This document shows, one piece after another, positions 36,822-42,858 of a stretch of DNA of 64,000 bases. The notes beneath the pieces were generated by a model. It ran no database searches, was not told the origin of the DNA, and saw only the letters and a program-made list of their open reading frames with translations. Each line of letters starts with the position of its first letter. Position 1 is the stretch's first letter. This DNA is from Parafrankia discariae (GTDB taxonomy: Bacteria > Actinomycetota > Actinomycetes > Frankiales > Frankiaceae). The position numbers and the translations under genes were made by a program. The DNA lies in NCBI RefSeq assembly GCF_000373365.1, contig NZ_KB891252.1:124001-188000 (forward strand). The letters are read 5' to 3'.

Positions 36822-37145
36822 GCCGAACTCCTCTCCTTCGAAAGTTTGGTGCGGACGTCTTGGTGGCGGTTCGCCGGGTGTGGGCCGAACGGGCCTCCCG
36901 AGCCAACCGGTGCTTCGTGCTCCTGCCCCCGCGGGTGCCGAGCGCGGGTGCAGCCTACGCGACCTCTGATTTCCCGGTCGCACCGGGATTGTTCCCCTCC
37001 GCAGCACCGACGGAGGGATCTCCCTCGAACGTCCGACACAGCCCGGAGCGTCCTGTTTCGGGGCACGCGCGAGTATCGGGAGCCGTCTCGTGCCGGGTCG
37101 CGCGTCGGCGTACCGACCGGCGGCCTGGCGAACTGGAGACGCGGC
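36822..37145. other. Upstream region of the nuo operon
   Basis: 324 bases between nuoA and the upstream reductase gene, both on the minus strand. TAGGCT on the minus strand near 36950-36955 resembles a -10 element, but no good -35 partner was found. No gene or long repeat is seen. The operon promoter is expected here. Confidence 0.4.
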
Positions 37146-39753: not shown

Positions 39754-40551
39754 TCAGTCGTCCCCGCCGGGACGGACCGCCCGGTGGACGGCGACGATCC
39801 CGCCGCTGAGGTTGCGCCAGCCCACCCTCGTCCAGCCGGCCGCGCGGATCGACTCCGCCAGCGCGGCCTGCCCCGGCCAGGCCCGGATCGACTCCGCCAG
39901 GTACACGTACGAGTCCGGGCTGCTGCTCACCGCCCGGGCGACCGCGGGCAGCGCCCGCATCAGGTACTCCAGGTAGGCCGTACGCACCGGCCGCCACACC
40001 GGACGGCTGAACTCGCAGACCGCCAGCACGCCGCCGGGCCGGGTGACCCGTAGCAGCTCGGCGAGGCAGACGTCGACCTCGGCCACGTTGCGCAGGCCGA
40101 AGGAGATCGTGACCCGGTCGAAGGAGCCGTCCGCGAAAGGCAGACGCAGGCCGTCACCAGCCGTCAACACCACCCGGCCTTCACCAGCGGCGCCCCTTCC
40201 GCCTCCGGTACCCGTTCCCGCTCCGGCGCTCGCGGCCCCGGCACCCGCCCCCGCGCGCGTGGTCGCGTCGGCGAGCCGGCGCCGGGCCTCGGCCAGCATG
40301 CCCAGGGAGAAGTCACAGGCCACCACCTCGGCCCCGGCGGCGGCGAAGGCCCGGGACGACGTCGCCGTCCCGGCCGCGAGGTCGAGGACCCGCAGACCCG
40401 GCGCCAGGGCCAGGGCCCGTGCGGTCGCGGTCCGCCAGGTGCGGTCCAGCCCGGCCGACAGCACCGTGTTCGTCACGTCGTACCGCCGGGCGACCTGGTC
40501 GAACATCGCGGCCACCTGGTCGGGTTTCTTGTCCAGACCCGCTCGGCTCAC
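39754..40551 (-). CDS. menG: Demethylmenaquinone methyltransferase
   Basis: SAM-dependent UbiE/MenG enzyme that adds the C-2 methyl group in the last nuclear step of menaquinone synthesis. 265 aa, start at 40551 ([28 protein letters not shown]). Motifs: [32 protein letters not shown] (SAM site, about 54-86), [25 protein letters not shown] and [18 protein letters not shown] Gly/Ala/Thr insertion ([20 protein letters not shown], about residues 99-118) interrupts the domain after the SAM site. It follows the deaminase gene by 4 nt. Confidence 0.92.
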
Positions 40552-40555
40552 CGGC

Positions 40556-41656
40556 TCATCCCTCCGCGTTCGTCATGGCCACCGGTCCCGCCAGGTCGGC
40601 GAACGCCGCGGGGGCGGCGGCGAGCGCCGCGGCCTGGGCGGCGTCCCAGTCCGCGCCCGCCCCGAGCGCCGACAGCCGGGAGCGGGTCCGGTCGTCGCAC
40701 AGCGCGCCGGCCACCCCGGCCTCGTAGAGCCCGGCGAGGGGCACCCCGAGACCCGCCGCGACGGCGTACTCCCGTTCGAGGTCCGTGCCGAACATCGCCG
40801 GGTCGTCGGTGGCCAGCGAGCAGCGCAGCCCGGCCGCGACCAGCGCGGGCAGCGGGTGCGCCGCCAGGTCGGTGACGACGCCCGTCCGCAGGTTCGACGT
40901 CGGGCAGACGTCCAGCACGACGCCCCGCTCGACCAGTTCGGCGACGAGCCCGGGCTCCTCGAGAGCCCGCAGGCCGTGCCGGATCCGGCGCGCCCCCAGC
41001 ACGTGCAGCGCGCCGCGCACCGACTCGGCGCCGACCGTCTCCCCCGCGTGCGGGACGGCGGGCAGGCCGACGTCGGCGGCGGCGGCGAAGACCGGCGCGT
41101 ACGGCTCCGGTGGATGGCCGACCTCCGGCCCGCCCAGGCCGATCCCGACGACACCGCGGTCGGTGAACCGGGCGGCCCAGCCGACGACGTCCATCGCGAC
41201 CTCGGGCGGCAGCACCCGGTCGATGTCCGGGGTGAGCCGCACCTCGACCCCGAACCGCTCCCGGGCCTCGACGGCGCCCTCGGTGTAACCGATGAAGATC
41301 TCCTGCCAGGGCACGCCCCGGTGCACCCGGAACCACGGCGAGAAGATGCCCTCGAGGTAGACGGCGCCCTGCGCGGCGGCCCGGCCCGCGTAGTCGACGA
41401 CGACCTCGCGGAAGTCCTCGGCCGTGCGCATGACCTGCGTCGTGAGCACCCAGACCTTGAGGAAGTGGTCGAAGTCGCGGAACCGGTACAGCTCGGCTAT
41501 GCCCTCGACGGTGCGGGCCGGCAGCGCCTCGTCGTTGCGCCGTGCCATCGCGAGCAGCATCTCCGGCCGCACTGTCCCCTCGAGATGGACGTGCAGCTCG
41601 ATCTTCGGCCCACTGCCCGCGACGGCCGGCCCACCCGTGTCCGGTTCGTGGCTCAG
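40556..41656 (-). CDS. Adenosine-deaminase-family enzyme, probable 6-aminodeoxyfutalosine deaminase; apparent CTG start
   Basis: Metal-dependent deaminase of about 366 aa with HVHLEG near the N-terminus, [11 protein letters not shown] in the middle, RIRHGL and the C-terminal metal site [14 protein letters not shown], all expected for the adenosine deaminase superfamily. It lies directly after mqnC and before menG. Work on a related actinobacterium (Acidothermus) showed such proteins deaminate aminodeoxyfutalosine to futalosine, so that role is inferred here. No ATG, GTG or TTG occurs in frame between 42058 and the HxHLEG motif; the first canonical codon (GTG at 41572) would remove the metal ligands. 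A CTG at 41656 overlaps the mqnC stop as CTGA, exactly where ATGA or GTGA would be expected. Confidence 0.85.
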
Positions 41657-42858
41657 GTCGACACCAGCGGCAGCGCGGTCGAGGAGAAGTGCGAGGCCAC
41701 CCGGTCGTCGACCGGGTCGAGAGCCGGGTCCCGGTGCACGACGAGGTGCCGGTACAGCGTGTCGCGCTGCGCCGGGATCCGGTCGGCGGCCCGGATCAGG
41801 TGGATGAGCTCGGTCCGGTTGGTCCGGTGCCGGGCCCCCGCGGAGGACACCACGTTCTCCTCCAGCATGACCGAGCCGAGATCGTCGGCACCCATGTGCA
41901 GGGTGAGCTGACCGACCTCCTTGCCGGTGGTCAGCCAGGAGCCCTGCAGGTGGGCCACGTTGTCGAAGAACAGCCGCGCGACGGCCACCAGCCGCAGGTA
42001 CTCCAGGGTCGTCGCCTGCGTCCGGCCGCCGAGGTGGTTGTTCTCCGGCTGGTAGGTCCACGGGATGAACGAGCGGAACCCGCCGGTGCGGTCCTGGACG
42101 TCCCGGATCATGCGCATGTGCTCGATGCGCTCGGCGTTGGTCTCGCCGGTGCCCATCATGAACGTCGCCGTCGACTCCAGGCCCAGGCCGTGGGCGATCT
42201 CCATGACCGACAGCCAGACGTGGCCGGGCTCCTTGAGCGGGGCGATCGCGTGCCGGGGACGCTCGGTGAGGATCTCCGCGCCCGCGCCGGCGAAGCTGTC
42301 GAGACCGGCGTCACGCAACCGGGTGATCACCTCGGCGAAGTCCAGGTCGGACGTCCGCGCGATGTGCACGACCTCGCTGGCGCCGAGCGAGTGCAGGGCA
42401 AGCTGCGGGTAGGCGGCCTTGATGCCGGCGAACGTCCGCTCGTACCACTCGATCCCGAACTCGGGGTTGTGCCCGCCCTGCAGCATGATCTGGGTAGCGC
42501 CCAACTCGACCGCCTCGCCGCACTTGGCGACGATGTCGTCGAGGTCGCGGACCCAGCCCTCGGCGTGCTTCGGCGACCGGTAGAAGGCACAGAACCGGCA
42601 GGCCGTCACGCAGACGTTGGTGTAGTTGATGTTCCGGTCGATGATGTAGGTGGCGATGCCGTCCGGGTACCGGCGGCGGCGCACGACGTCGGCCGCGTGC
42701 CCGAGGTCGTGCAGCGGGGCGGACGTGTAGAGGAGCAACGCCTCCTCCGGCGAGATCCGCCCGCCGTCGGCCGCCCGGTCGAGCAGCGCGCGGATCTCGG
42801 TGTCGGGAACGCGGGCCCGGCCCGCCGGGGACTCACCGTCGGCATCAACAAGGCTCAC
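41653..42858 (-). CDS. mqnC: Cyclic dehypoxanthine futalosine synthase
   Basis: Radical SAM enzyme that cyclises dehypoxanthine futalosine in the futalosine route to menaquinone. 401 aa from the GTG at 42858 (VSLVDADGESPAGRARV). The cluster motif is CVTACRFC (CxxxCxxC) in NYTNVCVTACRFCAFYRSP. Other family stretches are IMLQGGHNPEFGIEWY, STATFMMGTGET, FRSFIPWTYQPENNHLGG and GSVMLEENVVSSAG. No mqnB or mqnD gene is nearby. The end overlaps the deaminase gene. Confidence 0.95.
   Translation of the reverse strand: MSLVDADGESPAGRARVPDTEIRALLDRAADGGRISPEEALLLYTSAPLHDLGHAADVVRRRRYPDGIATYIIDRNINYTNVCVTACRFCAFYRSPKHAEGWVRDLDDIVAKCGEAVELGATQIMLQGGHNPEFGIEWYERTFAGIKAAYPQLALHSLGASEVVHIARTSDLDFAEVITRLRDAGLDSFAGAGAEILTERPRHAIAPLKEPGHVWLSVMEIAHGLGLESTATFMMGTGETNAERIEHMRMIRDVQDRTGGFRSFIPWTYQPENNHLGGRTQATTLEYLRLVAVARLFFDNVAHLQGSWLTTGKEVGQLTLHMGADDLGSVMLEENVVSSAGARHRTNRTELIHLIRAADRIPAQRDTLYRHLVVHRDPALDPVDDRVASHFSSTALPLVST

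Follow-up and report, generated by a model that had tools for sequence, protein, structure and literature searches.

The locus analysed here raises the question of where translation of a gene begins when its reading frame has no ordinary start codon ahead of its metal-binding motif. The window is a 64,000-nt stretch of the Parafrankia discariae genome (contig NZ_KB891252.1, positions 124,001 to 188,000), and positions at this locus are numbered within it. The mqnC gene, encoding cyclic dehypoxanthinyl futalosine synthase, lies on the minus strand at 41653..42858, with GTG 42858 as its predicted start. Its 3′ end reads ...CTG GTG TCG ACC TGA, with the stop codon TGA at 41655-41653. A deaminase frame on the same strand can be read from 41656 as CTG AGC CAC GAA CCG. 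The CTG occupies 41656-41654, and C41656, T41655, G41654 and A41653 together form CTGA (41653..41656, minus strand), a 4-nt overlap of the putative deaminase start with the mqnC TGA. Read from this CTG, the deaminase gene spans 40556..41656 (minus strand) and encodes 366 amino acid residues. A 63-nt linker (41594..41656, minus strand) leads from the CTG to the HxH part of the metal-binding motif HVHLEG (41576..41593, minus strand).

Within the open frame, taken to 60 nt past HxH, the in-frame ATG, GTG and TTG codons were GTG at −405, GTG at +84, ATG at +96 and ATG at +108 relative to the CTG. The first of these is located inside mqnC (42059..42061, minus strand) and is the nearest canonical codon upstream; the second (41570..41572, minus strand) is the first canonical codon downstream and lies past the metal motif. 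The sequence-only reading of this DNA had stated that no ATG, GTG or TTG occurs between base 42058 and HVHLEG, that GTG 41572, the first canonical codon inside the gene, comes after the motif, and that a CTG sits at the usual position of the 4-nt overlap. All of this agreed with our list of in-frame codons. Its proposal of a CTG start with coupled reinitiation is still the best reading, the reinitiation being suggested by the anatomy of the junction. We consider it likely that the deaminase gene starts at CTG 41656-41654, a codon that bacteria very seldom use for initiation, and that this start is reached by termination-reinitiation from mqnC.

Both partners of the overlap are real genes by profile. 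In a profile search MqnC matched TIGR03699 with 481.5 bits (E 1.1e-144), above the cut-off. The deaminase matched PF00962 (E 4e-78) and TIGR01430 (256.5 bits; cut-off 216.55). The motifs HVH, PHAGE, RHG and ATDD, which we take to be the catalytic motifs of the adenosine deaminase family, were read in the protein. Adenosine deaminase is also the NCBIfam name of the matched family and the term given to the closest solved structures (3rys, E 9.9e-53). The gene is placed between mqnC and menG/ubiE, which encodes demethylmenaquinone methyltransferase and is the next gene of the run (39754..40551, minus strand; NF001241, 386 bits, above cut-off). A futalosine hydrolase (TIGR03664, above cut-off) was present in all six Parafrankia genomes, and a translation that appears mqnE-like is found on this contig at a distance of about 16 kb. 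The enzyme is probably the 6-aminodeoxyfutalosine deaminase of the futalosine route to menaquinone (vitamin K), a substrate assigned from the position of the gene.

The junction was compared in six Parafrankia genomes: P. discariae, P. soli, P. colletiae, Frankia sp. EI5c, Parafrankia sp. EUN1f and G002. The deaminase was found in each of them, 81-89% identical within the genus, and CTGA was found at every mqnC/deaminase junction, so that the 4-nt NTGA pair has CTG rather than ATG, GTG or TTG at the start position in 6/6. This bears on the simplest alternative, in which a base error at 41656 masks an ATG or GTG. Such an error had been put forward as a caution that could overturn the sequence-only reading, and that caution is what spoke for it. 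Position 41656 is C in all six genomes, and four loci were 100% identical to public records over the compared stretch; an error here has a negligible probability and is refuted for the genus. Because CTGA is fixed in 6/6 genomes, the caveat is gone and the case is stronger than the sequence-only reading had supposed. That the C is conserved says little by itself, since C is a favoured wobble base in a GC-rich genome, and the six genomes are related and are not six independent tests.

The frame upstream of the CTG allows a second alternative. In P. discariae the deaminase frame stays open over 657 nt ahead of the CTG, and initiation at GTG 42061 would give a 501-residue protein with a long N-terminal extension. 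This GTG is the sole canonical in-frame codon upstream and occupies the same −405 place in five of the six genomes, as can be expected because it lies within the mqnC coding sequence. In P. soli, however, a stop 75 nt ahead of the CTG closes the deaminase frame, and the interval contains no canonical codon, so a start farther up inside mqnC is impossible in that species. The coding signal agrees with this. A codon model trained on the P. discariae genome placed the onset of deaminase coding two codons upstream of the CTG. In the 60 nt ahead of the CTG, where the two frames were compared, the mqnC frame beat the deaminase frame in 6/6 genomes, and the latter scored −11 to −17 bits in every one. 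Initiation at GTG 42061 is thus very improbable.

Downstream of the CTG, the distance to HxH was 63 nt in P. discariae and 138, 57, 108, 147 and 63 nt in the other genomes, in frame in all. Part of this variation in length (57-147 nt) comes from in-frame low-complexity repeats, seen in P. discariae and at loci L005, L007 and L008. No canonical start was present between CTG and HxH in P. discariae and EI5c. The other linkers carried canonical codons at +69 and +111 (P. soli), at +21, with another GTG at +60 within HxH (P. colletiae), at +78, with TTG at +105 (EUN1f), and at +42, +60 and +81 (G002). Upstream of the conserved PKIE motif, CTG was the only NTG codon common to all six genomes.

These codons suggest a third alternative, a start downstream of the CTG. 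In this case GTG would be used in four species, and P. discariae would use ATC (41602) or have no efficient start, with weak expression or decay of the gene. GTG codons do occur in the linkers of 4/6 genomes, the ATC is found 9 nt upstream of HxH in all six, and the P. discariae genome has a further paralogue of 42% identity that might compensate for a weak gene. The linker GTG codons, however, are at non-homologous places, and the coding signal and the frame are kept from the CTG to the first GTG in 4/4 genomes. The family profile begins at P17, ahead of the ATC, and the within-genus identity given above is that of an intact gene. The deaminase frame scored best over the linker in 6/6 genomes, and it was also the best frame in 6/6 over the part of the linker before the first GTG. 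Pooled over that part, the deaminase frame scored 10.4 bits and the other two −58.3 and −68.8 bits, a gap attained by 0.4% of 5000 intergenic controls. The P. discariae linker alone is short and its score was weak, −1.1 bits against −2.6 and −9.7. A downstream start is therefore unlikely, and the CTG is retained as the preferred start.

A close orthologue of the deaminase (E up to 1e-90) was found in 24 of 35 Frankiaceae genomes, and all 24 junctions were read. Among the 18 loci in other genera, GTGA was located at the same place in six and a separate ATG or GTG served the deaminase in 12; dependence on CTG was seen in 0/18. The expectation that relatives would show ATGA or GTGA was therefore borne out in part: it held for the other genera and failed within Parafrankia, where CTGA was the rule. 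No close orthologue at the same threshold was found in 11 of the 35 genomes (G015, G019, G021 and G027-G034). It was absent from all eight genomes of genus g7, which we believe to be Pseudofrankia, and a different deaminase may for that reason serve there.

A maximum-likelihood tree was built from 22 of the 24 family deaminases and three outgroups; L023 and L024 yielded no protein of sufficient length and were left out. The CTGA loci formed one clade with support of 100/100. GTGA was found in two lineages of the tree, one of which is the outermost family member. The simplest history would be a single change to CTGA from an ancestral GTGA. Most likely, the wobble base of the last mqnC codon changed and turned GTGA into CTGA, which would then have been fixed throughout the genus. 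The comparison outside the family comprised 104 rows, with some genomes counted twice, and 67 of these had no mqnC within 700 nt. CTGA was also seen at the mqnC/deaminase junction of an Actinomycetota MAG (L096), where a GTG follows 24 nt later.

The main mechanistic rival does without a start at the CTG. In it, slippage or suppression at the mqnC stop codon produces an MqnC-deaminase fusion by frameshift. The 657 nt of open frame upstream of the CTG in P. discariae are compatible with such a product. According to the accessible part of a report on the AUGA overlap of uPPE2/PPE2, that overlap mainly reinitiates, with some stop suppression accompanied by frameshifting (PMC11260477). Against a fusion, the final 120 nt of mqnC contained no X XXY YYZ slippery heptamer in 6/6 genomes. 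Furthermore, at 12 of the 18 loci in other genera an ATG or GTG outside such an overlap serves the deaminase, which indicates that fusion is unnecessary for function. We regard the fusion as improbable as the main product; it is possible as a minor product made beside the separate proteins.

Termination-reinitiation at the CTG would proceed as follows. A ribosome ending mqnC would halt at TGA, within reach of the overlapping CTG, and stay on the mRNA. It would restart at the CTG with the ordinary fMet initiator tRNA, the CUG pairing at two of three positions. The predicted product begins fMet-Ser-His-Glu-Pro-..., and the deaminase would be made only after MqnC.

The surroundings of the CTG were searched for other initiation signals. 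The best Shine-Dalgarno (SD) match was GGTG(A), 4-5 nt upstream of the CTG, and matches of at least 4 nt were reached at 870 of 3000 random positions (29%). The earlier remark that no SD sequence is visible was therefore fair. The deaminase has nothing like the GGAGGG (40565-40560) that precedes menG. In the first 676 kb sampled of the P. discariae genome, 16 of 46 ATGA/GTGA overlaps had an SD match of at least 5 nt, so a missing SD is ordinary for this genome. Since no strong SD is present at the deaminase CTG, reinitiation by the ribosome that has read mqnC is the likeliest route. RNA folding gave no sign of a structure at the junction: 100 nt around it folded worse than shuffled sequences (z 2.05), and two sub-windows were unremarkable. 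The initiator tRNA pattern GGGCTCATAACCC was found in 6/6 Parafrankia genomes, and in each of four scanned loci ARAGORN called tRNA-Met(CAT). The anticodon arm was ordinary in 6/6 genomes, and no special initiator was seen among them. The 4-nt overlap is described as the commonest coupled arrangement in prokaryotes in the accessible part of PMC12548453, and termination-reinitiation is described as validated for overlapping gene pairs in that of PMC6728339.

CTG starts were then surveyed in 1,872,862 bases (about 24%) of the P. discariae genome, in which 1499 genes were predicted by the codon model. Among 826 adjacent same-strand pairs, the phase of the TGA allowed an NTGA overlap in 259. The first base was G in 105 of these, C in 77, A in 65 and T in 12. 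One CTG at an overlap alone means little, because 77 of the 259 phase-matched pairs are CTGA. Conservation within the genus (6/6) is a stronger test than a single overlap count. Six of the 77 CTGA pairs had no nearby canonical start, and two of these, the deaminase and an ATP-grasp gene, survived inspection. A RecQ-like helicase split at CTGA (C2, ~146044, minus strand) was rejected because the helicase continues across the junction, which looks like a frameshift. Two positions on C151 (minus strand) were rejected as CTG starts: at 36885 the next ATG was at +156 and the coding boundary at +135, and at 219313 the ATG was at +105 and the boundary at +72. The sixth CTGA pair, at C58 35410 (minus strand), had its coding boundary 327 nt upstream and counts as an ambiguous candidate. 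A second screen flagged 5 of 1218 genes, a PHP-domain gene among them, and a looser screen flagged 54 of 1218, mostly with uncertain coding boundaries. At C2 240694 (minus strand) the coding signal reached back to a TGA in the same frame, and a stretch of 147 nt contained no canonical start; a frame break or readthrough is possible in this gene.

The ATP-grasp gene (PF15632) is located at C1:191664-192866 on the minus strand, with its CTG at 192866 in a CTGA overlap with a small membrane protein gene. No canonical codon was present from −75 to +96 around the CTG. The gene is rare: of 393 genomes in the class, 6 have it. Among the six Parafrankia it occurs in two (P. discariae and P. soli), with CTGA in both. 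Three relatives in the family were read. One starts with ATG in ATGA. In the second, a stop closes the frame 9 nt ahead of the alignment, and only CTG is available up to +60. The third has only CTG among the codons listed, plus an ATT read in the sequence. Relatives in two other genera thus also seem to be without ATG, GTG or TTG. A relative at the level of the class (L239) has upstream ATG codons.

The PHP-domain gene (PF02811) is located at C107:243040-243999 on the minus strand, and its CTG at 243999 follows AAGGAGGTCGCG. An in-frame stop lies 33 nt upstream of this CTG, and no canonical codon occurs before the DLHAHS motif. Thirty orthologous loci were read, one of them without the motif. 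At seven loci the 240 nt preceding the motif contained no in-frame canonical start (5/6 Parafrankia, one g7 and one g4), and in all seven an in-frame CTG was found behind an SD-like sequence or in CTGA. At the two loci with CTGA, the upstream frame showed little sign of coding (0.5 and 2.4 bits). The coding score from the CTG to the motif was negative in 5/8 loci, yet this frame was the best of three in 8/8. In g7 the codon at −12, 5 nt behind GGGAGG/GGGGAGG, varied: four genomes had CTG, three had TTG, and three of the four with CTG also have a canonical codon farther up. This exchange of CTG and TTG at one position is the best sign of CTG initiation in Frankiaceae, although the negative coding scores speak against it.

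Comparative sequence suggests that Frankiaceae do use CTG as a genuine start codon, though rarely. The ATP-grasp and PHP-domain candidates, whose CTG also recurs in relatives, lend support to the deaminase start. We lean towards the view that in this family it is a low-frequency fourth NTG start, used in overlaps lacking an SD and also behind a strong SD, unlike in mycobacteria. In the accessible part of PMC4633059, a reporter selection in M. smegmatis enriched ATG, GTG, TTG and ATT, and CTG was not enriched (0.03%). CUG served as a non-start replacement in the work on M. tuberculosis, as far as the available text of PMC11260477 goes, and CUG complexes were less stable on E. coli ribosomes according to that of PMC11497404. 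The presumed use of CTG in Frankiaceae would then be either a real difference of the group or dependent on contexts, such as the stop-start overlap, beyond those covered by that work.

Gene finders limited to ATG, GTG and TTG would misplace or truncate such genes, and a truncated form of the deaminase would lose its metal site. At the mqnC junction, the GTGA of sister genera and the CTGA of Parafrankia form a natural pair for studying a possible relaxation of start-codon stringency when a ribosome reinitiates at an overlap. The PHP-domain gene, with CTG or TTG behind an SD at one position, poses the same question for normal initiation.

The titles and abstract openings searched contained neither a CTGA stop-start overlap nor CTG starts in Frankia. 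CTG start codon is reportedly a term in papers on rare bacterial CTG starts, among them those of the E. coli O157:H7 genes ano and pop, and in work on FIB replicons (PMC5960689, PMC7103648, PMC11983097). The present case differs from these in that a conserved biosynthetic gene is compared across genomes. The Parafrankia junction appears to place a rare start codon within a known kind of overlap. As in the NTGA overlaps treated in the accessible parts of PMC6728339 and PMC12548453, the TGA shares bases with the next start, the order of the genes is coupled and a strong SD is often missing. Those overlaps are given there as ATGA, TGATG or generic NTGA, whereas in Parafrankia N is C throughout the genus. 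The uPPE2/PPE2 overlap of M. tuberculosis, as presented in the accessible part of PMC11260477, resembles the junction in its host and form, for it too is an actinobacterial overlap at TGA (AUGA) with a downstream gene lacking an SD. There the start is AUG and was tested with reporters.
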